Of a stretch of DNA of 64,000 bases, positions 28,935 to 46,705 are shown piece after piece; the first letter of the stretch is position 1; each line of letters opens with the position of its first letter. Position numbers and translations under genes: made by a program. This DNA is from Fibrobacter sp. (GTDB taxonomy: Bacteria > Fibrobacterota > Fibrobacteria > Fibrobacterales > Fibrobacteraceae), in NCBI GenBank assembly GCA_017475045.1, contig JAFVGH010000043.1, positions 40,823 to 104,822 on the forward strand, written 5' to 3'. Below the pieces are notes generated by a model, which saw only the letters and a program-made list of their open reading frames with translations, did no database searches and was not told the DNA's origin.

Positions 28935-31900
28935 CTACCCTTCTTGACGATTATACTCCTTATACAAGCGCTCCCATGTAGGGGAAATTACTTCTCTAAA
29001 CGTGTCCTTTTCACAGCGAGGCAGAAAATCGCCATGAGCATTGGAATAATGCTTGAAATTTCCGCATAACCTGCAGTATTTTTCGAAGTGCTCCTTTATA
29101 ACGGATTCCGTCAATTCTGCAAGCGATTTCACGCCCTCCCCATCACCTAAAACTCTCGAAATTCCTCCACAAACGGAACAACCATAATATCCGTTCTTGT
29201 TCAATCCTATTCCACAATAGGACGCAACCCAACATGCCTTTTGATAATCCTCGTCCTTGAAATTAGGGTCGTCAATAGGAGCGTCGGCGAACGGAGTGAA
29301 ATACCCGATTTCGTTGTCATCTTTCGAAGATTCATAATCTATACGAACGTTCTTGAATGACTTAATCTCTTCACAAATATTTCGTGATTGTTTCGTATAA
29401 CGGTTTGATACAACCTGAATGATTACATCGTTATTGAATGCATCGGCGTATTCCGTTTGCAGAATTCCTAGAATATCCTTGAGTTGGGGGTGCAGCGTCG
29501 GCTCACCGCCTAGAATGTTTATCAATTTCCATTTGATATTGAGCAGCATACTTTCTTTAACGAATCTCTTGATATCCTGAAGATCCATGTGTTCTCTTGA
29601 CGGAGCCAGCCCGCAAGATCTGTTACATCCCTTGCATTTCAAGTTGCAATCAAAGGTGATGTCTATTTCAATTTTGTCCATCTGCGGGAAAAAGGTCTTA
29701 CGCTTCTTGTATACGTTTTGAGGCGAAAGCTTATCCTTTCTAAGTATTTCCTTGATGCAACGTTCCTTTATATCTCTATTCGCATCCCTATTCTCGTAGT
29801 CCCTTTCGTAATAGTAGTTTATGAAGTCCATCTGATATGGGGATTCGCTCATTTCTACGATGGGCACCATAATCGCATAGTCATCACATTTTTCAAACCA
29901 TTTTCGTTGCGAAAACTTAGCTTCGCCATTGTTATACATAAAGTACGATAAAGGTATTGAATCAAAGAGGTATTTCTTGAACGTCTTCAAATGCTGCCAT
30001 ACATTGCCCCCATACTTTCGCGGATTCATAAAGTCTACGGGATAACGGTAATGAGGCTGGATTCTGTAAGTCTGGTGGACTCGACCACAGGTTGTATCCA
30101 CGCCCCACATGGCATATTTCTTGTAAACATCATATAGGGCTTCTTTCCCAATCAAGGCATCATCGGCATCTACCATGACGATTATAGAATCAGGATTACT
30201 GCAATAATTGTGCAGTGCGAGGTACTCGCATTGCAGTTTCTCTAGCCTAGTACGTCCCTTTATGAAGGTTATTCTGTCTGAATAAGGCTTAATCAAGTAG
30301 TCGATAAAATACTGAATCCCATTGTCGGAACAGTCATCATAAAGAATAATGCTAAAATCCTGAAAACGCTGGCTCATTAACGAGCACCAAAAACGAAGGA
30401 ACCTCTCGATAGAAACATTCCTAAAACAAGAGAGAACAACCATTTTCTCATTGCGTTTGGGGTAACTCCAATCAAAGAAGGATCCCTCGCAATCAAAGTG
30501 ATTTATCTGTTTGTCTAGAATATAACCCTGCTCAATCCTGTCCAGTATATTCATCCAGCTATAGGGTTTTGTTTTCCTGTAGTTTTGGGGATGAATGTAG
30601 AAGCTTCTCTTGTCCCCACCACGAATGGAACAATATCCCGTTTGCCTTTGATACTGTTCCATGGACCTATACCAGGTTAGCCTCAATTTGCCGTTTTCAT
30701 CTGTACTATTAGGGTAAGGGCGTAAGCCGAACATTCGCTTCTTATCAAATAAACCCATCCTCACTTCTGGCACAAAGCCACCCTCTTCAAAACCAAAATA
30801 CAGATTACTTTGGGAAACCGGTATGTTGAACCCGACTGAAATGACTTTTTCGTTTGATTCCAGTTCGTTTAACATATCATTCATGAACGAATGACCGTAA
30901 TCGGAGCGACCTATCATTACATCACTATCCATTTGCAGGATGTAATCGCCTTCACAGTTCTCGAAAGCATACAACTGTGACGCAATCGGGACGCCCTTTA
31001 TGGAATGAGTCTCCTTTGTCGCTATTCCGAACCATCGTTGGTTTACCGCTTCGGCCTGGTTAACGTCAAACAGGACGAATCTGTCAATAACGCCTTCATC
31101 CTTTAGCTTTTCTGCAATTGCAATGACACCATTCAAGTTTCCTTCTGCAGTATATTGACGTACAAAATCACATTCGCGACAATCAATAGAAACGACCACC
31201 TCATGGAAATAGTTTGGACAGGACAACTGTCGTACGATATGGCGAATATTGGATTCTATCGTGAATATATCCTGAGCACATGTCTTGATTAGCAGGGAAA
31301 CCTTTTTGCGCAGAGGGCTGATTTTTCTATAGCCGATAGCAATTCTTTGGGGAACAAAGGTATTGTCGCTACTTAATTTCGGTTCGTCAACCTGAATATC
31401 CGATAAGTACAGGTGTTCCCGAATTTTTGAGAAGAACAGATAGTCAAGATTGCAAACTTCGGAGCAGCCGTATATCTCGTAAATTAATCCTGGTTGCTGG
31501 TTAATCTTGAAAGAATGTATTACCGGGCCAGACTCCTCGTAAATGATGTTGGAGAAAATCTTGTTGACGAATTCCCTAAAACCATCCAACTCCGGCAAAT
31601 CGAAGTTGTTAATCGCACTCCGTTGCAATTTCTTTAATCGGGGATTATCCTGCTCATTGATAAAGATAAACATGCGCGCACAGGCATTTAAGAAAAAGTC
31701 GTCATTGTAATACTTGCACCCATCGAGATCTATTAGCTTTATGGTTCCATTTACTCGAATGAAATTTTCCCGCTTGCAATCCTGAATAATCACCTTCTTC
31801 TGCCAGCATTCCGTCAAGAACTGGATTGCGTCTTTTTCTGAGAAATACCCAACAGGTTCTGAGGCCTCATAGGGATACTTTTCAATAAACAGACCTTCAA

Positions 31901-32141
31901 ACTCTAAGACCTCATCCAAATGGTAAAAGGACTTGTATTCTTTTTTGTCAAAGAAGAATGTCAAGTGACGGTAGGTATACCACTTGTCACCGCCCTCAAA
32001 GAACGGAAGGATTACCTTGTATACATAGTTCGCATCATGAAAGACGACTCCTTCATAACCTTGGCCTAAATATTCCAAATCGTCTAGGCCCATTTTTTTC
32101 AAAATTTCTAGTGCACGTTGCTTTCTTTCTTCATTTTGCAT
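28935..32141 (-). CDS. Four-domain fusion: kinase-like, two GT2 glycosyltransferases, radical SAM
   Basis: The 1068-residue protein joins four modules. Residues 20-200 are kinase-like: GQGYEGVVF glycine loop, VYKVI lysine, D121-x-K-x2-N126, and DLDG at 138-141. Residues 275-510 are a GT-A domain with DSD at 405-407. Residues 565-780 are a second GT2 with DADD at 658-661. Residues 825-1068 are radical SAM with C832-x3-C836-x2-C839, a GGEPTLHP motif and a Cys-rich SPASM-like end. It probably builds and modifies a surface glycan or glycoconjugate, but the substrate is unknown. It overlaps the upstream glycosyltransferase by 34 bp, so they are coupled. I know of no named family with this layout. 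Confidence 0.85.
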   Translation of the reverse strand: MQNEERKQRALEILKKMGLDDLEYLGQGYEGVVFHDANYVYKVILPFFEGGDKWYTYRHLTFFFDKKEYKSFYHLDEVLEFEGLFIEKYPYEASEPVGYFSEKDAIQFLTECWQKKVIIQDCKRENFIRVNGTIKLIDLDGCKYYNDDFFLNACARMFIFINEQDNPRLKKLQRSAINNFDLPELDGFREFVNKIFSNIIYEESGPVIHSFKINQQPGLIYEIYGCSEVCNLDYLFFSKIREHLYLSDIQVDEPKLSSDNTFVPQRIAIGYRKISPLRKKVSLLIKTCAQDIFTIESNIRHIVRQLSCPNYFHEVVVSIDCRECDFVRQYTAEGNLNGVIAIAEKLKDEGVIDRFVLFDVNQAEAVNQRWFGIATKETHSIKGVPIASQLYAFENCEGDYILQMDSDVMIGRSDYGHSFMNDMLNELESNEKVISVGFNIPVSQSNLYFGFEEGGFVPEVRMGLFDKKRMFGLRPYPNSTDENGKLRLTWYRSMEQYQRQTGYCSIRGGDKRSFYIHPQNYRKTKPYSWMNILDRIEQGYILDKQINHFDCEGSFFDWSYPKRNEKMVVLSCFRNVSIERFLRFWCSLMSQRFQDFSIILYDDCSDNGIQYFIDYLIKPYSDRITFIKGRTRLEKLQCEYLALHNYCSNPDSIIVMVDADDALIGKEALYDVYKKYAMWGVDTTCGRVHQTYRIQPHYRYPVDFMNPRKYGGNVWQHLKTFKKYLFDSIPLSYFMYNNGEAKFSQRKWFEKCDDYAIMVPIVEMSESPYQMDFINYYYERDYENRDANRDIKERCIKEILRKDKLSPQNVYKKRKTFFPQMDKIEIDITFDCNLKCKGCNRSCGLAPSREHMDLQDIKRFVKESMLLNIKWKLINILGGEPTLHPQLKDILGILQTEYADAFNNDVIIQVVSNRYTKQSRNICEEIKSFKNVRIDYESSKDDNEIGYFTPFADAPIDDPNFKDEDYQKACWVASYCGIGLNKNGYYGCSVCGGISRVLGDGEGVKSLAELTESVIKEHFEKYCRLCGNFKHYSNAHGDFLPRCEKDTFREVISPTWERLYKEYNRQEG

Positions 32142-33736
32142 AAGCCTAAGCCTCGTTGATAAAGTTCCTTTCGTATTTCCAAATAGAGAGCGAGTCTCTT
32201 GTTATCTGCGGTTATTTTTCCATTCAAATTGTAAATCGTCAGTAGCACATCCTCTGCAATAGCGATTTTATAATCGTTATTGCCAAGTAACAAATCAACT
32301 AGAAGAAAATGGTCCTCGGCACTATTCTTTGCAGGATAGTCGCGCAGGCTTCTTTTCGACATAAATACATTACACGACGGTAGTTCTGCTTCGGCAATAT
32401 CATTCGACATATCCCTCAGCCGGTTTATTAAATAATCACTGTCAAGGAGATCCTTCGTAGCGCGATTCACCCGACTTATCACCTTGTTATTCAATCGCAA
32501 GTAGTTTCCGGCTAGTACGACATCAGCTCCGCTCTGTTCTTGAACCTGTTCGATTCTCGACAGAACAAGATTATCTGAATACACGTCATCGCAATCAAGC
32601 CGCCCAATCAACGCAACATTTCCGAAGTATTTCCTGGTATAGGCATGAATATCATTTCTGGTCTTGTACGTAGCATTGTTCTTTACACGGATTACCATCA
32701 CGTTTGTCAAAGCCAAAAGGTCCGAGACTTCTTCTTCCCAGCCATCGTTAGAATCATCGTCCGCAATCAATACCCACAGGTGGCTAGAGAGATTTTCTTG
32801 GTCAAGAATGGACTGAATGCATCGTCTAATGGTTTTTCGTCCATTGTGAAGTGCGATTCCTATCACAAACTTCTTTTCATCAGCCTTCCCATGAACCAGG
32901 TTGAATAACTTGTATATGTTGCTGAAGTCGTTATAGTCAAAAAGCTTCTCGGCGCGAAGGACTGCCTTTTCAAGCAATTCGGGAGTAAAGAGGTGAATGT
33001 ACTTTTCAAAGAATCGTGTAATGCCGAGATGCTTCTTGCCCTTATCGTAAGTAATGCTACCTTCCCATGCAAAATGGTTCACAAGGACCATCGGTGTAAT
33101 TGCAAACCGAATCCTTGGAGATAATTGCAAAAGCCGAATAAGCATATCCCGGTCGGTACAAGAGGGTAACATTTCATCAAAGCCATTAACCCTCTTTAAT
33201 GTACCCAAGCTAAAGAACATATTGCTTCCTTGTATTCCGATATTGCCGCAAAGGAAGTTTTCGATTGTTATGTCGGACTGTTTAAAAATATGCGGTGAAG
33301 GGCAATCACTGCGTTTTAGATACGCGCAGCAGGCTTCAGGAAGACAGCCATTCTTATTGAAGAAGGCGTCAATGGTATTACATTGACATTCCAGATATGT
33401 CGATTCCCAGGAATCGTCGTCATCAAGGAAAGCGATATAGTCGCAATCAATGAATTGACTTGCATACCATTCTATTCCCGAATTCCAAGCCCCAGTACCA
33501 GAACAGCCATGTGTATGGCAATTTTTAAAGTAATGTAGATTCGGATTGTGGTAGAAATTGAGCTTTGCCACTAATTCATCGCTAAAATGAGTATTATCGT
33601 TGTCATCAACGACGAGGACGCAGTCTGGTTTGACGGATTGCGACAAAACGGATGCCAGGGAACGACCGAACAACAGATCGTTCCTGCACATAGATGTGCT
33701 TATAAGGACTCCTATTCTATATTTCTTGGCAATCAA
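32108..33736 (-). CDS. Tandem GT2 glycosyltransferase
   Basis: The 542-residue protein holds two GT2 (GT-A) domains. The first (residues 5-230) has VLVVDDND and the metal motif FLDDDD near residue 97. The second (residues 290-500) has IADDDSND and RLDCDD. No membrane segment is seen, so it is cytoplasmic and probably acts with the fusion protein encoded downstream, whose start lies within its last codons. Its own start overlaps the transporter gene by 20 bp. Acceptor and sugar are unknown. Confidence 0.85.
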   Translation of the reverse strand: MIAKKYRIGVLISTSMCRNDLLFGRSLASVLSQSVKPDCVLVVDDNDNTHFSDELVAKLNFYHNPNLHYFKNCHTHGCSGTGAWNSGIEWYASQFIDCDYIAFLDDDDSWESTYLECQCNTIDAFFNKNGCLPEACCAYLKRSDCPSPHIFKQSDITIENFLCGNIGIQGSNMFFSLGTLKRVNGFDEMLPSCTDRDMLIRLLQLSPRIRFAITPMVLVNHFAWEGSITYDKGKKHLGITRFFEKYIHLFTPELLEKAVLRAEKLFDYNDFSNIYKLFNLVHGKADEKKFVIGIALHNGRKTIRRCIQSILDQENLSSHLWVLIADDDSNDGWEEEVSDLLALTNVMVIRVKNNATYKTRNDIHAYTRKYFGNVALIGRLDCDDVYSDNLVLSRIEQVQEQSGADVVLAGNYLRLNNKVISRVNRATKDLLDSDYLINRLRDMSNDIAEAELPSCNVFMSKRSLRDYPAKNSAEDHFLLVDLLLGNNDYKIAIAEDVLLTIYNLNGKITADNKRLALYLEIRKELYQRGLGLCKMKKESNVH

Positions 33737-34346
33737 TTCTGTTCCTGGTTAGAAGGTAGAAGAACGGAGTATCGCATAGGGCAAGCACGACTTTTGCAAT
33801 AAAGACGCCCAAAACCATGCTCCAGATGTTGGGAACAACGCCATAAAACGCGATAAAGGAAAAGATGATCGTATCTAGAAATTGGCTAATAATTGTACTG
33901 ACATTGTTTCGAATAAATTTGAATCTTGGGGAATAGTTCCTTATTTTGTGGAAAATGTACACGTCGGTACTTTGGCTTATTATATATGCGACAATGCTTG
34001 CAATAAAGATTCTTGTTGACGTGGAAAAAACTTGGCTGAAAGCACTGGAGTCATAAGGTGATGGCAAAAGGAGTGCCAGGCGGGTTAATACACAGGCCAC
34101 AATTAGGCAAATGAACCCGAACTGGACGATCCTGTTCGCGACCTTCCTTCCATATAGTTCTCCTATAACGTCAGTCATCAAGTATGTTAAGGCATAGCCG
34201 ACCGTTGCTGAAGGCATTTCTAGGCCGCATACGCAGATGACTTTCGACGCAAGAAAGTTCGACGAAAGCAAGCCTGCCGTAAATAGGCATGAGCAGGCGA
34301 TGAGGAAATAGATTTGGCGATTTTGGGATGGATTGAGTTGAAGCAT
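33717..34346 (-). CDS. VUT/YhhQ-type queuosine-precursor transporter
   Basis: The 209-residue protein has about six membrane spans and typical YhhQ text: LLSSNFLASKVI, then TYLMTDVIGELYGRKVAN, and STDVYIFHKIR. Members of this family bring preQ0, preQ1 or queuine-type bases into the cell for tRNA queuosine. Its stop lies within the glycosyltransferase gene, so it opens the three-gene overlapping operon. A preQ1 riboswitch was looked for in the 63-bp leader and not found. Confidence 0.85.
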   Translation of the reverse strand: MLQLNPSQNRQIYFLIACSCLFTAGLLSSNFLASKVICVCGLEMPSATVGYALTYLMTDVIGELYGRKVANRIVQFGFICLIVACVLTRLALLLPSPYDSSAFSQVFSTSTRIFIASIVAYIISQSTDVYIFHKIRNYSPRFKFIRNNVSTIISQFLDTIIFSFIAFYGVVPNIWSMVLGVFIAKVVLALCDTPFFYLLTRNRIDCQEI

Positions 34347-34652: not shown

Positions 34653-35158
34653 GGTATACCTCGCTTGGGTAAAATTTTTGTGTTGAAGATGTGATTGGAA
34701 ACATCCCGTTCGGTTGGAACGGAATTCTAGGCGTTTGGAGCGGCAGAAATGCAGCTACAGACAAAACGCCAAAAACCACGTCGGTGCTATACCTACGTGA
34801 CTATCCCCTAGTGAGGTTAAGACTGGTTATTCATCATTTTGAACTCCTTGCTGGTTGTTACGAAAAAAAGCAGAGAGTTACAACTAACAGCAGTTCAATG
34901 ATGTATTCGTAATATATAAAAACTTTTTCGGAAAAGCAATAGGGAAAGAAAAAAAATAGAAAAGGCTTGCTTTTTCTTGTTTTAGGGTTTATATTTGAGT
35001 TGTCATTGAAAGAGTTGTTTATCTATCGCTTTTTTTTGGAGACAATTTTTTCAAATGACAAGACATTTTTTTGTTTTTTCGTTTGAAACATCCCTTTTGA
35101 AGAGATGTTTTTGTTGTTTCCAGAAAAGAACTGAAGTTAAACATTCTTTTAAGGAAAT
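34653..35158. other. 506-bp AT-rich intergenic region
   Basis: No convincing gene is present between the divergent small gene and the 950-residue gene. A short stem (CCGTTC/GAACGG near 34708) and a hairpin AAACATC 35086-35092 with GATGTTT 35104-35110, followed by T-rich text, may be leader structures of the plus-strand gene. Long T runs at 34960-35080 dominate. Confidence 0.5.
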
Positions 35159-38011
35159 ATGACTATGAATACTGACAGATTGGCATGGCGCATCGTTAAC
35201 CTGAAGCACTGGGTAAAGAATAGCATTGATTTTGAAGGCTGGTCTTTTGGCTCGGATAACAGCGAATACAAAGAAATGTTCGAGGAAGCTCGGCAAGAAC
35301 TGGTCGGAACGGAGATGCCGGATTACGACGAGAAGAATCCGGACCCGCTTACACTCCACTTTGTGCTGGCAAGTGGTCTTTACCTGGTGTACGACCTGCT
35401 CACGCTAAAGTCTTCCTCGTACCAAACGAAGCGGAATGAATTGGCAAGCCGAGTGAGGGGATGTATCGAAAGAATCCCCCTGCGAAATAAAACTTCTTGC
35501 TCCGATCGCGCGGCAATGGACTTTGGCATCCATGACATACCAGACTCTGAAGAAAAAAGTGACACGAGCATTCCGTACGAATGGCTTGACCATGAAGACA
35601 CTTGGCTCAATAAAAGACTTGGGGCCTTCAAGACGTTTATTGATACAGGCAAGGTTCCCAAAACGGATTTATCTGGATTTCTCTGGCTATTCCTGAATTA
35701 TTGCAGACATTCGCTTCCGGTTAGTTTTGAAAATTTCGATATTGTCGGAGACAAGTGTTTTGATTCCTTAGCAGCCTACTGCGCCTATGCCCAAAATGAG
35801 GCGAAGCTGATGGAAAACGTCAACAACTATTCGCTGAACCTTTTTGCCACTATCAAGGAAAGGGGCCTGCCTTTTGAAAGAGGGCTGCGCAAGTTAAGGT
35901 ACATCTCATACCGTCCGATAGACCTCTCTGTGAAAAAGCGTGATCTGGAAACATTAAAAACTTTACGGAACGAGGCCGAGGAATCGGGAATTGATTTTGA
36001 AACATATTTGAAATCCTGCAACGCATATGGCTCGTGCACGATAGAGCTGGATCGTGAAAAAAGCAACCTCCCGACGACTATAAAGGATAACGAGGAATTC
36101 ATAGACCTGCTAAAGTACCATAACATTGTGAAGGCGTCTAGCAGGGGGTACAATTCTCTGTTTAACAGCCTTCTCAATTTGGTGAATAAGGTTTTTGATT
36201 GTGAAACTGACTGCTTTTTGGAGGATGAATCCAAGCAGGAAAAATTGCGAAATTCTGTAGAAGTTATCTTGAGCCAGAAAATAACTCTCCTGAAGAAGTG
36301 GCCCTTCCTGACAATGTTCTGCTACATGGTGGTCCATTACCTAGAAGAAGAAGAACTGCTCCAACTTTTCAAGAAGCCCGTCGGAGAAGACAAAAGCAAT
36401 CTTGTCTTCAAGGATATCAGGGAATGTCCTGGGCTTCAAGGTCTGTTTTTCTTTACACTGTTCGACATGAGTTATGGTTCAAGAGTCAATGGACGTTATG
36501 AAATCGGTGATGATTTCCTTGCCGCCCTTAAAAGGGGTGACTGGTTTGAACCTGCGGTGCAGAGCAGGTTGTTTACGGACATCCTTGAGCAGAATGGTAT
36601 GAACTGCTCTATTACCGCTGACGAGATGTCGTTTAAGAAATATATCGACAAGCACTTTCCTGCCACTCAGTCGGTTTTGAATCTTATGTATAATGTGGCC
36701 TGCTATTCGGAATCGAAGACTATCCTGAATATCACGCAACAAATCAATAATATCCATGAACACCATTCAGACCTAGTGTACGCCACCGTGAAAGCGGCCT
36801 TTGCGAACGAACCGAAAAAGAACGGCCGGAACAAGGATAAATCCTATACGGACTATACTGCCGATGAACAGAAGAAGATGAAGCAGGAATCCGACAAGAT
36901 GAAGGAAATCGATTGCGGCATCCTTCTTCCGAATTATGTTCAGCAAGTTCCAGGCTGTAATAACCAGTTTTTTTCCAGAAACTTCGAAATGAAACTTTTC
37001 TGGCAGACAGATGTATCCTGCGTGCCTGGCCCCGAAGGGATATTACAGAAGAGGGACTACCATCTGAAAAGAAACCGAAGGATGCTGGAATGCGGGTATT
37101 TGTATTATGCCCGTAATATGATAACGCACAATGATGACCTCTGCCACACGGACAATTTGCTTGATCCGAAGTATTATCCGGACTTGCTGCGCATCCTGTA
37201 TTCGCTTATGAGACAGATGCAGAAGGATTGCTCCCTGCCACCTTCGGAAGAAAAGGAACGCCTGTTCAAATTCAAGCATTCTAGTTTCTCGGACGATGAC
37301 TCCGTATGGACTTCTATGTGGATTTCACTCACAAAGAAATCGTTGGAGGAATCCATTGAAAAGGGCCAGGAAATGGAGTTGCTTGACGGCTTGAAGTCCT
37401 ACGAAAGCATGATTGAGAAATCAACTCTAAACAAGGATAGCAGTAAACCAGCTATAGAATTGTTCAAGTTCTTGGCCGATATTCACAAGAAACTGGAAGG
37501 CAAATTTTCACCCAATGTGGACACCGCTGCAGTGAAGGTGAGTAACGCGGCAAGGGCAAAGATCTTGGCGATGCAGGAGTCCTACGATGCAGTGAGTTAT
37601 GACTTATTCAAGAATGAACCTACTTACGAGTCACCATTCCTGAAGAAGTGCATTTCCCTATTGTTGCAGGTAATCCAATGCGTAACAAGTACGAAAGGCG
37701 TCGTAGACCTATTGAAGAAGAAGTCCGAGTTCAATGAAGAAGGTGTGCAGAGGCCCCTGCTAAACAGCGAAGGCGATGTCACTCTCGAGAATATAGAAGA
37801 GAAGGTTATCTATCCGGAAGCCCTAACAAAGGAACTACGAATCTTCTTGGATACGGTTTTTGGAATGGAACATCTTCGCCAATCCGAAAATGACAGCATA
37901 AACAGGAGTGTATTCCACCTTTACGGGTACAAGATTATGCTCTACCTTATGAAAGTGACGTTGCAGATGACGCGCATGGACTTGAAAGCCATTCACAGCG
38001 GTCAAAATTAA
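35159..38011 (+). CDS. Large protein of unknown function with a HEPN-like R-x4-H motif
   Basis: The 950-residue protein is mainly helical, with no signal peptide, membrane span or ATPase motif. At residues 652-657 it reads R-N-M-I-T-H in the context YYARNMITHNDD, which fits the HEPN RNase signature. A possible weak second site is NRSVFH near residue 905. AAGGA stands just before ATG 35159. The gene is alone on its strand, with AT-rich DNA before it. Size and a HEPN motif recall large RNase defence proteins, but no CRISPR array is present and two clear motifs are not seen, so Cas13 is not claimed. Confidence 0.6.
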   Translation: MTMNTDRLAWRIVNLKHWVKNSIDFEGWSFGSDNSEYKEMFEEARQELVGTEMPDYDEKNPDPLTLHFVLASGLYLVYDLLTLKSSSYQTKRNELASRVRGCIERIPLRNKTSCSDRAAMDFGIHDIPDSEEKSDTSIPYEWLDHEDTWLNKRLGAFKTFIDTGKVPKTDLSGFLWLFLNYCRHSLPVSFENFDIVGDKCFDSLAAYCAYAQNEAKLMENVNNYSLNLFATIKERGLPFERGLRKLRYISYRPIDLSVKKRDLETLKTLRNEAEESGIDFETYLKSCNAYGSCTIELDREKSNLPTTIKDNEEFIDLLKYHNIVKASSRGYNSLFNSLLNLVNKVFDCETDCFLEDESKQEKLRNSVEVILSQKITLLKKWPFLTMFCYMVVHYLEEEELLQLFKKPVGEDKSNLVFKDIRECPGLQGLFFFTLFDMSYGSRVNGRYEIGDDFLAALKRGDWFEPAVQSRLFTDILEQNGMNCSITADEMSFKKYIDKHFPATQSVLNLMYNVACYSESKTILNITQQINNIHEHHSDLVYATVKAAFANEPKKNGRNKDKSYTDYTADEQKKMKQESDKMKEIDCGILLPNYVQQVPGCNNQFFSRNFEMKLFWQTDVSCVPGPEGILQKRDYHLKRNRRMLECGYLYYARNMITHNDDLCHTDNLLDPKYYPDLLRILYSLMRQMQKDCSLPPSEEKERLFKFKHSSFSDDDSVWTSMWISLTKKSLEESIEKGQEMELLDGLKSYESMIEKSTLNKDSSKPAIELFKFLADIHKKLEGKFSPNVDTAAVKVSNAARAKILAMQESYDAVSYDLFKNEPTYESPFLKKCISLLLQVIQCVTSTKGVVDLLKKKSEFNEEGVQRPLLNSEGDVTLENIEEKVIYPEALTKELRIFLDTVFGMEHLRQSENDSINRSVFHLYGYKIMLYLMKVTLQMTRMDLKAIHSGQN

Positions 38012-38161
38012 ACTGCTCGATGCATTACGCTTGAAATTAAAAAAATACGCAATTATATAGTCATTTATATTCTTGAATAGATATTCCTCGTTACTAACAT
38101 AAGCACAGACTTACACTTGTAAATCTATCCTTTTTTGCCTAGGAATGGAGAGCAAAAAAAA

Positions 38162-38192
38162 ACGCATTTCTCCATTCAAAGGAGAAATGCGT
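38162..38192 (-). terminator. Strong terminator after the Cys-repeat gene
   Basis: A 12-bp perfect stem (ACGCATTTCTCC 38162-38173, GGAGAAATGCGT 38181-38192) with a 7-nt loop is followed, on the minus strand, by a T run of nine or more (38153-38161). It ends the maturase/precursor operon. Confidence 0.85.
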
Positions 38193-38221
38193 CGTTCTTT
38201 ATTGCACCTATCTAGCTACAA

Positions 38222-38968
38222 CTAGAGAATGAACGGGCAATAGGGGACGTTCACCAGGCAGGGGCCAAGCTGGCCATCGGCGGCACACGGCCCGACATCA
38301 ACCGCGCAGGCGTTTCCGAGGCAGCCCTGCGCTGCACATGCTCCAGAAGCGGCCGCGCATACATCTCCAGCACAACCTGCGCCAGCACACACATCCGCAT
38401 TTGCGGCACAGGTATCACCTGCACAGCCTTCTCCTGTCCCTGCCCCGGCATGGCCGCCGCAACCCTCGACAGCGCACGCTTCAGCAGCACAGGCATTCGC
38501 GTTCGCAACGCATGCCGCGCCTCCACAAGCATCGCCGCCACAAGTGCTTGCATTTGCTCCACATGCGGCACCGCCACACACATCGGCAGCGCAGGCACCT
38601 GCATTTCCACCGCAGGCATAGCCACCACATGCGTTAGTCGGGCAAGACGTCGAATCGGATCCGCAAGCCGCGCCGGCACACGACCCGCGAAGAGGTGCCT
38701 TGACCATCCTTCGGAAAGGAATCACGACCAGCTTGTTGTCTTCCAGATCCAGCTGGACATTTTTCAGAACAGAAATCAAATCAACGATCTTGTTGATTTC
38801 CCTCAGCTGTTCCATCAAAATGACAGGTGTACCCTTGCAGGTAGCCGTCGTTCCATCCGGAGTAACCGTAAAGCAGATGATTTCGTTTTTGCGGGTACGT
38901 GCGCGAAGGGTCAGGTCCAACCCCTGCGTGATGTAGCCGTTCCTGTCTACACGATTGATTTCCTTCAT
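38222..38968 (-). CDS. Cys-repeat RiPP-like precursor candidate (25 Cys on a 17-residue period)
   Basis: The 248-residue protein has a non-repetitive first part (residues 1-94), possibly a leader or recognition domain. The rest is almost only Ala, Gly, Cys, Asn and Asp. Core Cys lie at 97, 102, 109, 114, 119, 126, 131, 136, 143, 148, 153, 160, 165, 170, 182, 187, 194, 199, 204, 211, 216, 221, 228, 237 and 244. The steps are 5, 5, 7 over and over (period 17); position 177 is Gly and 233 is Gln where Cys would fall. It ends YCPFIL. The start is supported by AAAAGGA nine nt upstream. It follows a radical SAM/SPASM maturase by 16 bp, so modification of the repeats (for example thioether links) is likely. 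An unmodified Cys-rich structural protein is the alternative. Confidence 0.75.
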   Translation of the reverse strand: MKEINRVDRNGYITQGLDLTLRARTRKNEIICFTVTPDGTTATCKGTPVILMEQLREINKIVDLISVLKNVQLDLEDNKLVVIPFRRMVKAPLRGSCAGAACGSDSTSCPTNACGGYACGGNAGACAADVCGGAACGANASTCGGDACGGAACVANANACAAEACAVEGCGGHAGAGTGEGCAGDTCAANADVCAGAGCAGDVCAAASGACAAQGCLGNACAVDVGPCAADGQLGPCLVNVPYCPFIL

Positions 38969-38984
38969 ATCATGATTCCTTTTG

Positions 38985-40322
38985 TTAGTGGTGAAACTTT
39001 TTTAGATAGAGGCGCAGTCTATTTTCCAAATCGAACTTAATCGACGGGCATGGCGTAAGGGCCGAGTTTCCCGAATAGTTTTCCTTGAACAAGAAACGGT
39101 ACGTACACATTCCCATGCAATTTGGCATAATCCTGCAATCCAGGCATTCCTGCTCCACAAAAGGAGACCAAGATGTCCAATCCTTCCCCGCTTCCTTTAG
39201 ATTGAATTTCTCATCACCTATGTTCCCAATTTTGTACCTATCAACAGAAACAGTTTCCCAGCATTTGTGAACGTCACCATTCGGGCAGATAACAAGGCCG
39301 TTCTCCTTGGCAGCCCCGCAGAGCCCCATCAGATGCGGCGGCAGCGAAATGTCGCACAAGCCATTCTTGTGGGCATACGCAATGAGCTTCGTTTCTATCT
39401 CGGCATAGTGAAGGGCTTCCAAGGTATAGGCCGAAACATGCTTGCACATCGTTGTCGACGCATGAATCGGAGCAAAGTACATCGAAATCTTTTTAACACC
39501 CTTCAGTTCACGGGCCACCTCATCAATCAGCCTATAGCATTGCGCTTCGTTGCGGGAATCCACATTCACGCGGAATGTCGTCGCAATAGGCGTTCCTGAT
39601 TGGTATTTCCTCACGTTATCCATAATCACTTCAAAAGACCCGCGATCGTCTGACTTGAAAAAGCGAACCTTATCGTGAACATCCTTAGGCCCATCAAGGG
39701 TTATCTGAATCCAGGAAATTCGGCATTCCCTAAAGGCGTCCATATTTTCGGACTTGAGCAGGGATCCATTGGTGATTATGGAGGCCTTGTACGCGATACC
39801 CTTCTTTGTACACAGGTCAATCATTCGCCTAGATAAACCCCTTATAACGTCCATTCCAAGCGTAGGCTCGCCACCAAACCAGGTCACATTCAGATTTTGA
39901 AGTTCCGTACAGTTAGATTCCAGCCAATGCATAACGCCATCCTGCGTTTTTGCATTCATAATGGAACTTTTCTTGTCGGCACCTTCGAAGCAGTAATTGC
40001 AATTAAAGTTGCACGAAAGAGTCGGGAGAATCGTCATTGTCAATGACTGCTTCCCTGTTTTCACCGACAAAAACTTCTCTTTTATTCGTTCGCGCTCATC
40101 GGCATCGGCGGGAATTATGAAATTATTGATTAGGCACCTATCCAAGAAATCAAGCTTTGAAGCCTCCAAGTCAGCAGGGACGCCCTCACTAACAATTTTC
40201 TCCAGAAAGTCATACTCGTCGTGCGACAAGACCGCAAGGGAGTTGCCCAAAGTATTATACACTGCAATGTCATCGCCTTCGGCGATAAGGATATTGTATC
40301 TTGAAAAGTTGTATTTGGTCAT
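38985..40322 (-). CDS. Radical SAM/SPASM peptide maturase
   Basis: The 445-residue protein has an N-terminal 90-residue winged or RRE-like part (VYNTLGNSLAVL). The radical SAM cluster is C104-x3-C108-x2-C111 (CNFNCNYC), with TWFGGEPTLG near residue 150. The SPASM domain (CPNGDVHKCW, then CLDCRIMPNCMGMC) would hold auxiliary Fe-S clusters. This is the layout of RiPP maturases that make thioether or C-C links on peptides. It is the first gene of a two-gene operon; the Cys-repeat protein encoded 16 bp downstream is the obvious substrate. No transporter or protease gene lies next to it. Confidence 0.9.
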   Translation of the reverse strand: MTKYNFSRYNILIAEGDDIAVYNTLGNSLAVLSHDEYDFLEKIVSEGVPADLEASKLDFLDRCLINNFIIPADADERERIKEKFLSVKTGKQSLTMTILPTLSCNFNCNYCFEGADKKSSIMNAKTQDGVMHWLESNCTELQNLNVTWFGGEPTLGMDVIRGLSRRMIDLCTKKGIAYKASIITNGSLLKSENMDAFRECRISWIQITLDGPKDVHDKVRFFKSDDRGSFEVIMDNVRKYQSGTPIATTFRVNVDSRNEAQCYRLIDEVARELKGVKKISMYFAPIHASTTMCKHVSAYTLEALHYAEIETKLIAYAHKNGLCDISLPPHLMGLCGAAKENGLVICPNGDVHKCWETVSVDRYKIGNIGDEKFNLKEAGKDWTSWSPFVEQECLDCRIMPNCMGMCTYRFLFKENYSGNSALTPCPSIKFDLENRLRLYLKKFHH

Positions 40323-40611
40323 AATAAGTTTAGATGAAAAATTTCGTACAAACTTAATAATATTTTTGTAACGTAATGTAACGAGACAAATAAGCCATTT
40401 TTTGCCAAAAGTTTATCACAACTAAACAATGTTCAACCACAACAAAACATTAACAAGTCATTGTAGTTTATATGTATTACTTTGAACAAGTTAATTTTCG
40501 TCCATAATTATTTTGTAATTTTTTCAACACATTAAGTTTCTTGGGGGATTTTCCATGCCATTTTAAAGGCCAGCCGGGCCAAGGAACCCCCTCTTTTCTA
40601 TATTCGCAGGC

Positions 40612-41241
40612 ATGAACTACCGCATTGCCCTGTTAGCCTGCACCCTGCTCCTTGCCCACGCAAGTGCATCCGAAATCCACCCGTTCGTACGCGGGTTTTT
40701 CCCGGTAGACGTGAGCGTCTCGAAGAGTTTCCAAGGGGTCAGTTCCAGTGCGGACTACTCTACCGACTTTACCGCCGAGGCGGGTGCAGAATTCCTGACA
40801 GGGATGGAATTCGCCCCGTTCTTCTTCGGGGGCGGTATCGGTTTTATGGGTGCACAATGGGATGGCGAGATACAGGTAGCGCCAAGCACCATCCCCATAT
40901 GGGTTTCGCTTTCCCTGAGGTCCCCGAAAAGCTATCAGGACATTACGCCCTACGTGACGCTGCGCGCGGGCTGGCCCATGCCGGCGACTTCCATAGACGC
41001 CTGGTGGGAATCCCCCTCGAACTTCATGGTAGATGCAAGTGTCGGCCTCTTCTTTACGCAGGGCGTAGGTTTCGAGGCTAGCTACACCTTCACGAGCCTC
41101 GAAAAAAGCTACGAGCACAAGGACCTGAGTTACAGGGTCTCCTACGGAAAGCTCGGCCTGGCATTCTTCATGAGCTTCGACATCAGCCACGAACGAACCT
41201 ACGTACCGAACACGACCCCGATTCCCGAAGACGAAGAATAG
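40612..41241 (+). CDS. Outer-membrane beta-barrel protein
   Basis: The 209-residue protein starts with a signal peptide (cleavage likely after ASA near residue 19). Alternating hydrophobic strands rich in Gly and aromatic residues follow, typical of an 8-strand barrel. The tail is acidic (PEDEE) rather than ending in Phe. The gene is monocistronic, and its stop abuts the stop of the convergent 1799-residue gene with no gap. Function is unknown. Confidence 0.7.
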   Translation: MNYRIALLACTLLLAHASASEIHPFVRGFFPVDVSVSKSFQGVSSSADYSTDFTAEAGAEFLTGMEFAPFFFGGGIGFMGAQWDGEIQVAPSTIPIWVSLSLRSPKSYQDITPYVTLRAGWPMPATSIDAWWESPSNFMVDASVGLFFTQGVGFEASYTFTSLEKSYEHKDLSYRVSYGKLGLAFFMSFDISHERTYVPNTTPIPEDEE

Positions 41242-44200
41242 TTACCTGCGCCTGATACCGGTACGAACGGTGCGGGTTTCCTTGTGGCCGTCATCGAACA
41301 GGAACTTGATTTTCCAGATATACACGCCGGTACCGGCTAGGCGGCCTCTCTTAGTGCGCTGATCCCATTCGATGTACCCGAAGTGCGTCGAGTTCTCCGG
41401 GTTCGCCAAGGCGTCGTCTTCCAATTCCCCATTCTTGCCAAATTCGGTGCGGAACTGCGCCATGACATTGCCGATGTTATCGAACACGCTGACGCTTGCA
41501 CGGTATGCCATCTGGGTTTCCGTCCTGATAGCAGAAAGCGTATCGAGAGAAATCGCGGGATAGGGCTTGATGGAATAGAGGTAAATCTGGCTGTCTTCGC
41601 CCTCGATGACAACGCCACCGACTCCAGGCGCGTTCCCGTATTCATCGGCAATGGAGGCCGCAGGATTCGTCATGAGGCAATAGCCGGCACGAGCGTCAGT
41701 TTCCCGAGGCAGCACCATGGTCCAGACACGGCCCGACTTGTCGAGCCTGGGTTCTTCCTTCAGCGTAACGGGATGAACCTTGCCGCTACCACATTCTTCG
41801 GAGTACTGGAACAACTTGCTCCAGGCCTTTTTGTTCTTGCCGAAGGCTTTTTCCACAGGTTCAGACATCGTCACCACCAGCGTATCCAGCGGCAAAACGT
41901 CCACATCGTTCAAGAAGTCTTCTTCCTTCTTTAGGCCAGGGCGCTTCACTGCACGCACAGGCACAGGGCCCACCTTGTCGGACAAGTATACCTTCTGTAC
42001 CGCAGAAGATGTATTCCTGGAAATGTTCACGAATTTTCTGCCCGTAGAATCTACGCCGGTGACGCCATAGCCGAAGGGGCTTTCCAGCGCGACATTGATC
42101 CAGTCGCCTTCATCGGAAATCTCCATGTCTCGGTCGGCTACTCCGCGGCCAATATCCTCGGCGCCTCCCCAGAACAGCGTATCCATCTTCAACTGTTCCT
42201 GGAGAATGGACTTGGCAAAATGCACCCGCACAAAGTCGGCCTGGCCATCCTTATCCTGGTCCTGAATCTCTGCGGAATCCGCCGGAATGAACCCATAGAA
42301 CACCACGATGGAATCACGGCTATCCAGGGCAGACTTGTCCTTCCTTATCTGCATGCGGATAACCACTCGGTTTGTATCTGCATTCAGGTCCATGGCGGCA
42401 TCCAGCAGGTCATCTTTCAAATCCTTTTTGCTCGTCACGAACCTGAAGGAACTATGACCTTCAAACACTCCCGAATAGGCTTCCGTTTCGAAGGCGGGCA
42501 CCCACAAGGTATCGCCAAGGTCTGTAAACAGCGCCACTATGATAGTATCCACCTTGTCGTAAGTGGGGCTAACCATATTCAGGCTGAAGCCAAAGCTCAC
42601 CTCGGTCGTCTCTACGGAATCAATGTCCCTGACAAGGTCATCTTCAAGGAACACGTATTCCAGCGGGACAACGTCGCCAAAGGTAGTCGTATCGCGAGTG
42701 ATGGTCTTGTAGAACGGATCAACGAATTCTGTTACAATCATGTCGTCGCTCGCACAAGTCAACATACTGTCGCCCTTCACGGCCTTGCCCTCGCTCTTCG
42801 CCAGGTCAGATAAGTTGTATACGCCTCCGCCTCCATGAGTCAAGTCCAAGGTTTCTTCATCCTCGCTAAATAGGCAAGACACCTTCACCGGTAACGTCGT
42901 GGCAATCGTGGCGGGGACATCTATCAAGTAAGCATCGTAAGTCCAGATATCGTCAGAAAAGTCCTGAGTCTGCACTTCAATCTTCAATTTTTCAGTCGTA
43001 CGGACAATGGAATCCGAACCTGTTTCCATATCGCTGAGCTTTATGATATCGGGAGCATCCGGATCATGGTACATGAGCTCAGGGCCAGATTGTTCCCAAG
43101 AAAGCGTTTTTCCCGCATAATCTGTATAGACGGCTATGGTATGTTCGTCGCCGTTCAAAATGCCATCGGAAAGAACTCCGCAAGCAACTAGGCCCATATA
43201 GAACGGTTCCGAAGGTCGTTCAACAACAAACGGAAGAGAGTCCGTTCCTTCATATTCCCTTAGAAATTCATTTACGATAGGAACCCAGATAGTGTCGCCA
43301 ACAGCATACAATTGTAGGGTATCGCCATCATAAGTCATTGTAATGTCAGACAACCTGGTGTACGATATCTGCTTGGGACGCCATGCAAAAAAAGTCTGAG
43401 GTTTGGTTGAATCTGCAACGGAGACGTAGTAGCACTGGACCGAGTTGTAATAGCCTATACTAATCAAGCCGATGCCGACATTTGCCGCCGAGTCAGCCTC
43501 ATAAACTCCGTGGTAGCGGCATCTAGAAGAACTGAGCTTTACATGAGCATTTTTATGGGTAGAGGAATCCACTTCGCAATCCCCTTCCATCAGCTTCCAT
43601 TCCTTGAACACATAGCCAGTTAGGTCTTCCGCCTCGATTTGGGCGTTCATGCCATGCCCCACATCGATTGTGGGGCGCTGGATTATCTTACCCGCTAGAT
43701 CGTACTCCACGTCAACATAGTCCGTGGGAACCTTGGAATACTTAACACTGAAGGGCCATGAATAATACGATTGCGAGGAGACTGTCAAATAATTATCTTT
43801 TCCCGAGCTCTTAAAGTAACAGCCCAACCCATCCATTGTGCCGACACAGGAATCAATACCATTGCCCTTCCAGGCATCGGTTCCGAAATTCGTAACGATT
43901 CCTTCATAATCCTCAGGAGAGTTAAATTCCACATAGTACCATGTTGAATCTTCGGTAGCAGCGTGGAATCGAACCCATACGGAAGAGTATTCTCCATTGA
44001 TATAGTGGAAATAATTCTTGAAATCTTCGGTCAATTCAAAATATGGAACCACTACTGGCTTCATTTCACAATCACCATTGACTGTAATAATTACTTTAGA
44101 ACTGTTTATGGTTACAGGACAATTTTGTTCACCGGATATGTATTCAAAGTGGCTAAACTGCCAATCATGGGCAGAGCGATACGGATAAACGTTTATTATC

Positions 44201-46641
44201 TTGCCAATATCAACATATTCATCCCTTGATTCAATATCAATATTTTCTACAGAGTCAATCACAATTCTGGCCTGCTTTCGGAATTTGGCCGTTACAGTGC
44301 AGCCGACTGTCGATAGGGGAAGAACCCTTGTATTTGCGTTGTAATGGTCTTCAATTCTACAATTCGCGCTATTCACCCATTGAAGAAATCTGTAACTTTC
44401 GTTGGGCATGGCGCTAATATTCATGTATTCTTCGGCGTGTCCCTGCATTTCTCCTGAAGGGGAGACCGTACCGCCTTCCTCCGCCACTACGTTTACAATC
44501 GTGCGCATACGCAATTTGGCCGCAACAGAACAATCGCCGTTGACTACCACCTTGGCTGCCGTGGGAGAAGTGGGATTCTCGATCTTACAAACACTTTCGG
44601 ATACGGAAGTTTCTTCTAAAGTAGTGCCATCGATAAATACCCATTTGTCAAAATCGTAATTGCTCGCATTTGGATTGATTACCAACTGGTTCGAGGAGCC
44701 CTCGTCAACAAGGGTTTTCTTATAAAAAGCCGTTAAGCTATACGTTGATGTATAAGTACTAAGTGTATATGTCTTGACAAATCTTGCCGTTACGGTGCAG
44801 GCGCCTTTAACCGTCACCTTCGTCGACGAAGAAGTTGGACCTGCAACAGTACAGTTGGTACTTGAAGAGGTCCATTTGTCAAAGCGATAGCCGGATTTGG
44901 GCGTGGCTGTTATTGTGTTGTCGGAGCCGTCATCCACAGTTTTTGTTCCTGCCGATGCGACGCTTCCCCCCGTACCAGCGGATACCGTCACTTGATAAGT
45001 CTTGATAAAGTTTGCCGTTACGTTGCAATCAGCAGAAACCTTTACGATAGTCGACGCATTGGATACGGCACTTACTTTACAAGATGCATTATCAGTAGTC
45101 CACTTATCAAAGCGATAGCCAGATTTTGGCGTGGCGGTAATCGAATTACTGGAACCCTTGTCAACGGTCTTGTAGCCATACGGAGACGTTGTTCCGCCAT
45201 CTGCAGGTTTCGGGCCAATAGCAAAGGTGTTTCTTTGCACGAAGTTTGCCGTTACAGTGCAGCCACCATTGACAGTCACCTTCGTCGACGAAGAGGTTGG
45301 GTCCGCAATAGTGCAACTGGTACTCGAAGAAGTCCATTTATCAAAGCGATAGCCGTATTGATTTATAGAAGCCGAAATGTCTACCTTTGAACCGGCATCC
45401 ACTGTTTTAGACGTGAAGTTTGTTGACCCGCCTGTCCCTGCAGAAAGTTTCAGTTCATAGGTACGTACAAAGGTGGCCTGTATTTTACAATTTTCACGAA
45501 CATGGACATCCGTGGTTGCGGCAGTTTCATCAAGGACATAACATGCGGTGCCGCCCGATACCTTGACCCATTTATTAAAACGGTAGCCACTTTTGGGCGT
45601 TGCCGTAACACTTACTTCGGCCGAACCGCTCACATAAGTTCTTTTCGAGGTCTCCGTTGTTGTCCCGCCAGTCCCGGCGGTAATTGTGAGTTCTGCAAAC
45701 TTGAGAAAAGCGGGCTTGATAGTACAATCGCCATTTACAGTCACATAGGTGGTTGCACTGCGATTATCATCTACGGGGCAATTGGTGGCCTTGCTCCACG
45801 ATGTAAAGACATGGGTTTCATCCGGAATGGCCGTTATTTTTACCCTGGTGCCAACATCAACAGTTTGCGAGCCTGTGGGCGACGTGGTGCCACCAGTGGC
45901 TGTGCCGATGGTCAACACCGCCGTCTTTACGAAAGACCCCTTGATTGTACAAGCCCCTTCTACGACAGCAAATCCGTTTTCAGGGCTGATATCATAAAAA
46001 GTTTGAAGGTGCCTAGAATCAAAGATTTTACAATTTGAACTTCCCGAAGTTATAGTCCACTTGTCAAAGCGGTAACCGGCACTAGGCGTTGCCTTAAGAA
46101 TTTCGTTACATTTGAGATAAGTATCTGAAGATATTGTATAAGAAGTTGGTTCATAGCGATTGGAAATTTTTTCTTCATATACTGAAATGCCTGGGGTACA
46201 ATTGGACTCCGAACTAACGGAACCTCCAGTTCCAGCATTCAACGTAAGGGCAGTAAGCTTCCTATTCGCCTTGATAGCACATTTGCCCTTGATTTTTAAA
46301 GTTGTCGAAGCTTTACTCGCATCCGTAAAAGAACAATTCGAAGCACCGGACACGACTTTCCAGCCGGCAAACGTGTGTGTGTCCTCCGTTATCGCTCTTA
46401 ACGATATACTAGAATTATTCGACTGTAACATAAAAACATATTCATCAGGTTTAGTTCCATTTGTGAAATAATCAGATCTAGTATAACTAGTATTGGAGGT
46501 TATATTAAAATATGCATTGGACGTAGTAATTGATCCACCACAAGACTGCATAATTGCGGCCTCGTATCTATACCCCGACCAAACCATGCTGCTCAGCAAC
46601 AAAAGGATAAAAATGGCTTTTGTAAATATTATTTTTTTCAT
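41242..46641 (-). CDS. Giant surface protein: InlB-like Cys-pair repeats and T9SS-like FlgD-type tail
   Basis: The 1799-residue protein has a signal peptide (residues 1-22), then about ten divergent InlB-type repeats to about residue 800. Typical units read TATPKSGYRFDKW and end GxCTVTANF, each with two Cys about 18 residues apart that could form a disulfide. The middle (about 800-1650) holds Asp-rich Ig-like segments. The last 90 residues match the FlgD-like sorting tail (VFDNIGNVMAQF, then EWDQRTKRGRLAGTGVYIWKI). It is probably exported by a type IX system and kept on the cell surface, perhaps for adhesion. A stem lies just before its start. Confidence 0.8.
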   Translation of the reverse strand: MKKIIFTKAIFILLLLSSMVWSGYRYEAAIMQSCGGSITTSNAYFNITSNTSYTRSDYFTNGTKPDEYVFMLQSNNSSISLRAITEDTHTFAGWKVVSGASNCSFTDASKASTTLKIKGKCAIKANRKLTALTLNAGTGGSVSSESNCTPGISVYEEKISNRYEPTSYTISSDTYLKCNEILKATPSAGYRFDKWTITSGSSNCKIFDSRHLQTFYDISPENGFAVVEGACTIKGSFVKTAVLTIGTATGGTTSPTGSQTVDVGTRVKITAIPDETHVFTSWSKATNCPVDDNRSATTYVTVNGDCTIKPAFLKFAELTITAGTGGTTTETSKRTYVSGSAEVSVTATPKSGYRFNKWVKVSGGTACYVLDETAATTDVHVRENCKIQATFVRTYELKLSAGTGGSTNFTSKTVDAGSKVDISASINQYGYRFDKWTSSSTSCTIADPTSSSTKVTVNGGCTVTANFVQRNTFAIGPKPADGGTTSPYGYKTVDKGSSNSITATPKSGYRFDKWTTDNASCKVSAVSNASTIVKVSADCNVTANFIKTYQVTVSAGTGGSVASAGTKTVDDGSDNTITATPKSGYRFDKWTSSSTNCTVAGPTSSSTKVTVKGACTVTARFVKTYTLSTYTSTYSLTAFYKKTLVDEGSSNQLVINPNASNYDFDKWVFIDGTTLEETSVSESVCKIENPTSPTAAKVVVNGDCSVAAKLRMRTIVNVVAEEGGTVSPSGEMQGHAEEYMNISAMPNESYRFLQWVNSANCRIEDHYNANTRVLPLSTVGCTVTAKFRKQARIVIDSVENIDIESRDEYVDIGKIINVYPYRSAHDWQFSHFEYISGEQNCPVTINSSKVIITVNGDCEMKPVVVPYFELTEDFKNYFHYINGEYSSVWVRFHAATEDSTWYYVEFNSPEDYEGIVTNFGTDAWKGNGIDSCVGTMDGLGCYFKSSGKDNYLTVSSQSYYSWPFSVKYSKVPTDYVDVEYDLAGKIIQRPTIDVGHGMNAQIEAEDLTGYVFKEWKLMEGDCEVDSSTHKNAHVKLSSSRCRYHGVYEADSAANVGIGLISIGYYNSVQCYYVSVADSTKPQTFFAWRPKQISYTRLSDITMTYDGDTLQLYAVGDTIWVPIVNEFLREYEGTDSLPFVVERPSEPFYMGLVACGVLSDGILNGDEHTIAVYTDYAGKTLSWEQSGPELMYHDPDAPDIIKLSDMETGSDSIVRTTEKLKIEVQTQDFSDDIWTYDAYLIDVPATIATTLPVKVSCLFSEDEETLDLTHGGGGVYNLSDLAKSEGKAVKGDSMLTCASDDMIVTEFVDPFYKTITRDTTTFGDVVPLEYVFLEDDLVRDIDSVETTEVSFGFSLNMVSPTYDKVDTIIVALFTDLGDTLWVPAFETEAYSGVFEGHSSFRFVTSKKDLKDDLLDAAMDLNADTNRVVIRMQIRKDKSALDSRDSIVVFYGFIPADSAEIQDQDKDGQADFVRVHFAKSILQEQLKMDTLFWGGAEDIGRGVADRDMEISDEGDWINVALESPFGYGVTGVDSTGRKFVNISRNTSSAVQKVYLSDKVGPVPVRAVKRPGLKKEEDFLNDVDVLPLDTLVVTMSEPVEKAFGKNKKAWSKLFQYSEECGSGKVHPVTLKEEPRLDKSGRVWTMVLPRETDARAGYCLMTNPAASIADEYGNAPGVGGVVIEGEDSQIYLYSIKPYPAISLDTLSAIRTETQMAYRASVSVFDNIGNVMAQFRTEFGKNGELEDDALANPENSTHFGYIEWDQRTKRGRLAGTGVYIWKIKFLFDDGHKETRTVRTGIRRR

Positions 46642-46660
46642 ACGGACCGAAATTTAGGTA

Positions 46661-46705
46661 TTTAGGACAAAGGTTGTCAGGACCAAAAGTTCCTTTGTAC
46701 CTAAA
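46661..46705. promoter_or_regulatory. Inverted repeat in the leader of the giant surface protein gene
   Basis: TTTAGGACAAAGG 46661-46673 pairs with CCTTTGTACCTAAA 46692-46705, with a one-base bulge. It lies 20 bp upstream of ATG 46641 (minus). It may be an operator, an mRNA stem, or a weak terminator for the upstream lipoprotein gene. Confidence 0.35.

Follow-up and report, generated by a model that had tools for sequence, protein, structure and literature searches.

A periodic 25-cysteine protein paired with a radical SAM/SPASM maturase in Fibrobacter: a candidate protein-sized substrate for thioether cross-linking

A two-gene unit was analysed in a 64,000-nucleotide stretch of DNA from Fibrobacter sp. 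(GenBank assembly GCA_017475045.1, contig JAFVGH010000043.1, positions 40,823 to 104,822 of the forward strand); this whole stretch is called the window, and all positions refer to it. On the minus strand, a gene for a 445-residue radical S-adenosylmethionine (SAM)/SPASM maturase (38985..40322), identified from its open reading frame and matches to TIGR04463, TIGR04085 and PF04055, is followed 16 bp downstream by a gene for a 248-residue protein with 27 Cys (38222..38968), identified from its frame, Cys count, homologues and an orthologue in a second genome. This second protein, the putative precursor, is referred to as the target. An intrinsic terminator past the target gene (38161..38193, running from 38193 to 38161 on the minus strand) has a 13-bp stem and a T tail, with a folding energy of −30.2 kcal/mol (z −6.1). 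The initial annotation of this DNA had described both frames, the 16-bp gap, the SPASM maturase upstream of the target and a terminator closing the pair, and all of these proved correct.

The target has Cys at residues 32 and 44, followed by 25 core Cys from residue 97 onward, with successive steps of 5,7,5,5,7,5,5,7,5,5,7,5,5,12,5,7,5,5,7,5,5,7,9,7. From residue 97 to 228 (38285..38680, minus strand) these Cys form an array with 5-5-7 steps and the unit Cys-x-x-Asp/Asn. Nineteen pairs of Cys lie 17 residues apart, compared with a mean of 3.5 in shuffled sequences, and 0 of 20,000 shuffles reached 19, which rules out spacing by chance. The 5-5-7 period of the initial annotation was thereby upheld, but not its statement that Cys is replaced twice within residues 97-228: one position is lost there (residue 177, Gly), the second substitution (residue 233, Gln) lies just past it, and beyond residue 228 the steps turn to 9 and 7. 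The array is flanked by a conserved front domain (residues 1-94, 38687..38968, minus strand; MKEIN..NGYIT.GLDLT.RART...) and a conserved C-terminal tail (residues 229-248, 38225..38284, minus strand) ending in GPCLVNVPYCPFIL. In an alignment of nine sequences, GLDLT.RART of the front domain is invariant but for one position, and the C-terminal ending is likewise conserved. Of the features by which RiPP (ribosomally synthesized and post-translationally modified peptide) precursors are recognised, namely a conserved leader, a modified core and an adjoining gene for the modifying enzyme, the target shows a conserved front and an adjoining enzyme gene. AlphaFold predicts a small beta-rich domain plus helices for front residues 19-86, with a predicted local distance difference test score (pLDDT) of about 60-85, and a search against solved folds gave no match above noise. 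For the array, which has 2 aromatic residues in 148, the same nine-sequence input gave a pLDDT under 50 and no confident fold.

The target was found in 2 of 167 genomes of the phylum, the window's own and G062 of the same genus, both with the enzyme. The pair in G062 lies in a 2.45-kb stretch that is 91.6% identical to the window. Comparing the two targets, none of the 25 core Cys is changed, against 23 of 129 other core residues (Fisher p 0.027). Nonsynonymous and synonymous rates (dN/dS) by the Nei-Gojobori method (NG86) come to 0.074/0.328 (core), 0.097/0.278 (front) and 0.016/0.215 (enzyme). Because the core Cys are unchanged and a dN of 0.074 lies below a dS of 0.328, the target frame is, by this sequence comparison, under selection; a wrong reading frame is excluded by the intact orthologue and by dN well below dS. 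The only further enzyme match in the phylum at E <= 1e-40 is a 30% relative in G016, and its 4.3-kb locus holds no frame with at least three Cys pairs five apart, this being the sole criterion used.

The maturase belongs to the radical SAM/SPASM enzymes, with a CX3CX2C motif (Cys 104, 108 and 111; 39990..40013, minus strand) and a SPASM domain. It passed the cut-offs of PF04055 (53.5 bits against 29.5) and of the SPASM model TIGR04085 (52.6 against 27). The SPASM Cys set (335, 354, 393, 396, 402, 406 and 425; 39048..39320, minus strand) is, like the radical SAM motif, invariant across 34 aligned maturases, and its layout, C-x13-G-x4-C ... C-x2-C-x5-C-x3-C ... C, is the standard 7-Cys SPASM pattern. 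The best NCBIfam model is TIGR04463 (rSAM_vs_C_rich), where the enzyme scores 461.3 bits, below the curated cut-off of 525. The second best, the Clo7bot maturase model TIGR04334 (271.6 bits, cut-off 600), was not passed either, nor were CefB NF038107 (216.3, cut-off 600), the PapB family NF047865 (113.7, cut-off 340) and the SCIFF maturase TIGR03974 (98.4, cut-off 425). The dynobactin enzyme model DynA gave 90.5 bits, and the cyclophane-forming models YhhB, GrrM/OscB and AmcB gave 66, 52 and 50. PapB and SCIFF are among the best 25 of the 69 NCBIfam models matched, and models named for sactipeptides or epimerases are absent from those 25. The AlphaFold model of the maturase has a mean pLDDT of 93.8; its best match among solved structures is CteB (5why/5wgg), which is the best match by sequence as well, and TigE (8vpo) and the epimerase EpeE are also among the fold matches. 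Residues 1-90 (40053..40322, minus strand) comprise predicted strands at 4-6, 10-15, 18-23 and 28-32 followed by helices. Fold alignments begin at residue 1 with TigE and at residue 7 with CteB, and from the model this N-terminal region may be a leader-binding RiPP recognition element (RRE).

Two protein searches returned 14 and 22 target homologues, giving 23 different proteins. The front domain and the 5-5-7 period occur together in 11 proteins, namely those of the window and G062 and nine database homologues, P0001, P0002, P0004-P0007 and P0135-P0137, these nine having 4 to 7 complete repeat starts. P0003 (166 aa) has a window-type front and the start of a window-type pattern. Four others (P0008, P0009, P0138 and P0139) combine a window-type front domain with a short tail with few Cys; the longest contigs of P0008 and P0009 are equal in size (19,949), and these two are perhaps a paired companion. 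One homologue comes from Anaerocolumna xylanovorans, so the family extends beyond the window's genus.

Searches with a target profile, made independently of the enzyme, in sets of 167, 12, 397, 58 and 391 genomes, which overlap in part and used differing thresholds, matched five genomes: the window's, G062, G771, G567 and G174. By set, there were 0 of 58 in the order of G168, 1 of 397 in the family of G167 (G567) and 1 of 391 in the class of G167 (G771). The G567 match was judged a shadow frame overlapping a 499-aa gene of Ala/Glu/Thr repeats, and the G174 match a shadow frame on the reverse of a gene with pentapeptide-like repeats. All three remaining genomes carry a radical SAM/SPASM gene next door, the match in G771 being to the array only. 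Of the 14 database homologues with this front, at least six lie on a contig of identical size to that of a close maturase (P0002/P0016, 6088; P0004/P0037, 1,427,898; P0005/P0038, 10,148; P0006/P0040, 25,301; P0135/P0017, 3432; P0137/P0042, 4559). The contig of P0001 is one base off that of P0017 and was therefore not counted; P0017 is labelled 5-5-7 through its exact match with P0135. Three of the other eight homologues sit on contigs under 2 kb, and since 120 of 701 maturases were compared for contig size, a missing counterpart says nothing. The initial annotation had stated that its proposal would fall if homologues mostly lacked a radical SAM neighbour; with the enzyme in three of three genuine genome matches and at least six of 14 contig-size pairings, this is not the case. 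Viral contigs gave 18 pattern matches and zero confirmed relatives, 57 phage records were all below 60% identity (best-ranked 30%), and a plasmid search with the target, low-complexity filter on, gave no match.

Distant enzyme relatives were sampled at 80 of 418 loci, filtered by two short patterns. None exceeds 36% identity, so this genome scan missed the window's own branch, and the co-occurrence for 5-5-7 therefore rests on the phylum genomes and the contig sizes. A Cys-periodic frame was found within 1.5 kb of the enzyme at 25 of the 80 loci, two of them (L032 and L051) doubtful on visual inspection because they resemble CxxC proteins or shadow frames; of 2172 frames at distances above 3 kb, 0 were of this type. 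The periods differ between relatives, yet are largely fixed inside each protein: 5 with skips (L003, L004, L022, L027), 7-9 (L009, L010, L013, L015, L017), 7-10 (L014, L018, L019 and the Parashewanella proteins P0140 and P0141), a less regular 7-12 (L020), and 5-5-6 (P0012, P0142 and L079, the last 1.3 kb from its enzyme). The enzymes of P0012, P0142, P0140 and P0141 were not seen. In G771 (L095, 7356-11365), two tandem array peptides of 124 and 122 aa with Cys steps of 7,5 are followed by a CefB-like maturase (574 bits, cut-off 600) and then an ABC (ATP-binding cassette) transporter-like gene. By Pfam, the array is preceded by ricin-type lectin, beta/gamma-crystallin or fascin domains in three of four Cys-5 proteins (L003, L022, L027); the fourth, that of L005, had no Pfam match. 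The enzymes of L003 and L027 exceed the TIGR04463 cut-off and adjoin big Cys-array proteins.

These periods were compared with a quick enzyme tree of 74 rows, of which 30 carry a period label; like an earlier tree that used 83 of 127 rows, it was built without bootstrap. L021 was dropped as a long branch, L079 is absent (and had no label in the earlier tree), and the long branches G771, L023, L025, L039 and L019 remain. One branch has all eight 5-5-7 enzymes on the same side, with a Shimodaira-Hasegawa-like approximate likelihood ratio test (SH-aLRT) support of 99, and likewise for the five 7-9 enzymes, with 98. The eight period labels require 7 changes, the minimum possible, compared with a shuffled mean of 18.1 and 0 of 200 shuffles as low. 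Such agreement between Cys period and enzyme phylogeny is a hint that the Cys are read by the enzyme.

A shared feature of the arrays is the residue three places after Cys. In the window target, Asp or Asn (Asx) stands at Cys+3 in 14 of 24 cases, against a shuffle mean of 3.1 and a maximum of 8 in 2000 shuffles, and there is none at Cys+1, +2 or +4. The corresponding counts at Cys+3 are 86 of 171 in the 5-5-7 family, 60 of 135 in the Cys-5 group (five proteins), 93 of 110 in the 7-9 group (three of its five proteins, near copies omitted) and 41 of 64 in the 7-10 group, with Asx nearly absent at +1, +2 and +4 in all four. Because Asx concentrates at Cys+3 in all four groups, the arrays look like repeats of a single pentad (Cys-small-small-polar-small) with spacers of 0, 1, 2, 4, 5 or 7 residues. 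Among 35 array-type proteins, 25 match a Pro-rich ending (PYCPFIL, IIPIIPGI, VIPLLPSC). Separately, a stretch M-x-x-[IVL]-x-x-P occurs at or near the start of 11 of these 35 with otherwise unlike fronts, among them L003 (9563-11617), L022 (8524-11253) and L015 (5728-7332); it could be a recognition element.

Gene order, enzyme family, the full radical SAM and SPASM Cys sets, the period, the Cys-x-x-Asx unit and the tree fit together argue for a maturation unit. We put it at an even chance that the SPASM enzyme cross-links the periodic Cys of its 25-Cys neighbour, with one thioether predicted per Cys-x-x-Asp/Asn. By analogy with PapB, the target is probably a protein-sized RiPP-like substrate whose Cys are stapled through Cys-to-Asx thioethers. 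The N-terminal region of the maturase would bind the conserved 94-residue front domain, and the active site would then move along the array making repeated thioethers, each Cys sulfur being joined to the beta carbon of the Asp or Asn three residues on with a loss of 2 Da. Where Asx is missing at +3, the Cys may be left free or another acceptor used. In PMC9413430, PapB is described as linking Cys to Asp or Glu and as acting to completion with 1 to 5 residues in between, a range that includes CX2D. According to PMC11002830, the six links of freyrasin are S-C(beta) bonds between Cys and Asp, an S-C(beta) Cys-Asn bond occurs in a separate ranthipeptide, and CteB is a non-alpha thioether enzyme. 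With neither a protease nor an exporter recognised next to the pair, and with arrays forming the tail of lectin- or crystallin-domain proteins in some relatives, the product would remain an intact protein whose stapled array is rigid. Pfam scans covering 10 neighbouring genes (27.7 to 49.8 kb) matched no exporter family, in agreement with the initial annotation, which saw no transporter beside the pair, and no protease was recognised among them (two being without any family match). A broader proposal, held tentatively and less probable than the cross-linking itself, is that the enzyme branches act as rulers, each stapling Cys-x-x-Asx at its own spacing (5; 5-7; 5-5-6; 5-5-7; 7-9; 7-10; 7-12) into long thioether rods; these would be rigid domains of whole proteins such as lectins, not released peptides, and widespread, with the window as the 5-5-7 branch.

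Several findings weigh against cross-linking of this kind. The maturase lies far under the PapB and SCIFF cut-offs, and the FlmE/OhkG and geopeptide models outscore both. Ten of 24 window Cys have no Asp or Asn at +3, and for seven of 24 Asp, Asn, Glu and Gln are all missing; in G771 and in the groups with periods 7-9 and 7-10, Lys is frequent at +3, which is at odds with an Asx acceptor. On the enzyme tree, period 5 is scattered, needing 5 changes against 8.0 when shuffled, and the 7-10 label by itself shows no clustering, with 3 changes against a shuffled mean of 2.9; equal contig sizes are the basis for six of the eight 5-5-7 labels, and near-copies favour clustering of this sort. An Asx in a fixed place could equally be explained as a solenoid surface or turn residue. 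The thioethers might also lie elsewhere than at +3, as alpha-carbon (sactionine) or other Cys links to Ala or Gly with the Asx structural, which we consider unlikely while giving it more weight than the other alternatives. CteB, the best match of the maturase by fold and sequence, points away from it as a non-alpha thioether enzyme (PMC11002830), as do the presence of PapB and SCIFF, and of no sactipeptide-named model, among the best 25 of 69 models and the concentration of Asx at +3 in four of four groups. Rather more doubtful is the reading that the array forms a repeat solenoid or binds metal, its Cys acting as thiols (ligands or disulfides) and the enzyme altering few or other residues. 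Strict periods of 12 to 19 residues would suit solenoid turns, and three relatives have lectin or crystallin domains; the low pLDDT of the array, albeit from nine sequences, and the fit of the period to the enzyme tree speak against it.

It is improbable that the pair is an ordinary CefA/CefB system with nothing new. The shared Cys-x-x-Asx unit and a like tail favour this, as do P0010, P0011 and P0012, which pass the CefA cut-off, and a CefA adjoining a TIGR04463 enzyme on a Methylomagnum plasmid; the target falls short of CefA and the enzyme of both CefB and TIGR04463, the Cys are not every fifth, and the target has its own front domain. Marginally less credible still is an epimerase or a C-C cross-linking SPASM enzyme, the Cys serving later chemistry. 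SPASM enzymes catalyse many reactions, as outlined in PMC11002830, the DynA score is near that of SCIFF, and TigE and EpeE are among the fold matches; yet the cyclophane models score under PapB, no epimerase model is among the best 25 of 69, and the array is nearly free of aromatic residues.

The initial annotation knew of no named class for this system. That view could not be kept, as the kind is already in NCBIfam as TIGR04463 and as CefA/CefB, 'Cys-every-fifth', and it is for 5-5-7 itself that no name was found. TIGR04463, the window enzyme's best family, has members that adjoin big Cys-array proteins with Cys-x-x-Asx and a Pro-rich tail, and the window pair too has a Cys-rich target next door; it differs in its enzyme score, in a period of 5-5-7 and not 5, and in its own front in place of lectin or crystallin domains. 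CefA and CefB (NF038108/NF038107) share the Cys-led pentads with Asx at +3, and P0010, distantly homologous to the target (32% over 94%), passes the CefA cut-off at 74.7 bits. The window target reaches 16.1 of 30 bits on the CefA model, and by its sequence is a distant relative of that peptide; the CefB-like G771 differs from the window in its two short 5-7 peptides and ABC transporter-like gene. The Clo7bot system also has Cys-rich targets, but these are numerous and very short (about 41-53 aa), and ABC transporter genes lie close to them. FibroRumin (TIGR04136) is a SPASM maturase system with a Cys-rich target, and membership was rejected, the window enzyme scoring 68 bits against a cut-off of 400. 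PapB/freyrasin and CteB/SCIFF ranthipeptide precursors are short. These two systems differ from the window's in their enzyme scores, and freyrasin has six rings (PMC11002830). Of ranthipeptides, which are marked by a Cys thioether to a non-alpha carbon, the window pair shows indirect signs, the Cys-x-x-Asx unit and a CteB-like fold. Searches by name or topic for publications on TIGR04463, CefA, CefB, Clo7bot and Cys-every-fifth found none, those by topic being judged on title and abstract and most subscription journals lying outside the search. Parts of the system therefore already have NCBI names (TIGR04463, CefA, CefB); what appears new is a 5-5-7 branch carrying a front domain of its own, a set of differing periods that fits the enzyme tree, and a Cys-x-x-Asx unit common to the arrays. 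If the proposal is true, a single enzyme would install up to 25 cross-links in one protein in a set pattern, an enzyme family with differing spacings would show how radical SAM enzymes read distance along repeats, and 'RiPP' chemistry would reach beyond small peptides and take in structural domains of large proteins.

Some further loci of the wider class are of note. In the Bradyrhizobium locus L015 (5728-10474) and in L009, L013 and L017, frames of 534-690 aa hold 44-52 Cys in the 7-9 period, and in L015 genes of 166 and 303 aa without a Pfam match adjoin the maturase. On the Methylomagnum plasmid (L092, 4873-11832), the annotated CefA beside the TIGR04463 maturase is 679 aa long, and a 'RiPP maturation radical SAM C-methyltransferase' and a 2-oxoglutarate (2OG)-Fe(II) oxygenase are also present; this is perhaps a more heavily modified version.

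Around the pair in the window, neither a 950-aa gene (35159-38011) nor a 272-aa gene (46778-47596) has a Pfam match, and the closest transporter-like gene in the neighbour scans encodes a Vut_1 vitamin-uptake protein (33717-34346). A 1799-aa protein with eight InlB-type repeat matches (41242-46641, minus strand) has no counterpart at that place in G062; the G062 pair shares the window's outer flanks, and the 950-aa, outer-membrane-like and 1799-aa repeat genes have no blastn match there. The region from about 35000 to 46770 looks like a variable locus. Farther off, a 1068-aa protein (28935-32141, minus strand) has a radical SAM domain after a glycosyltransferase-2 domain.
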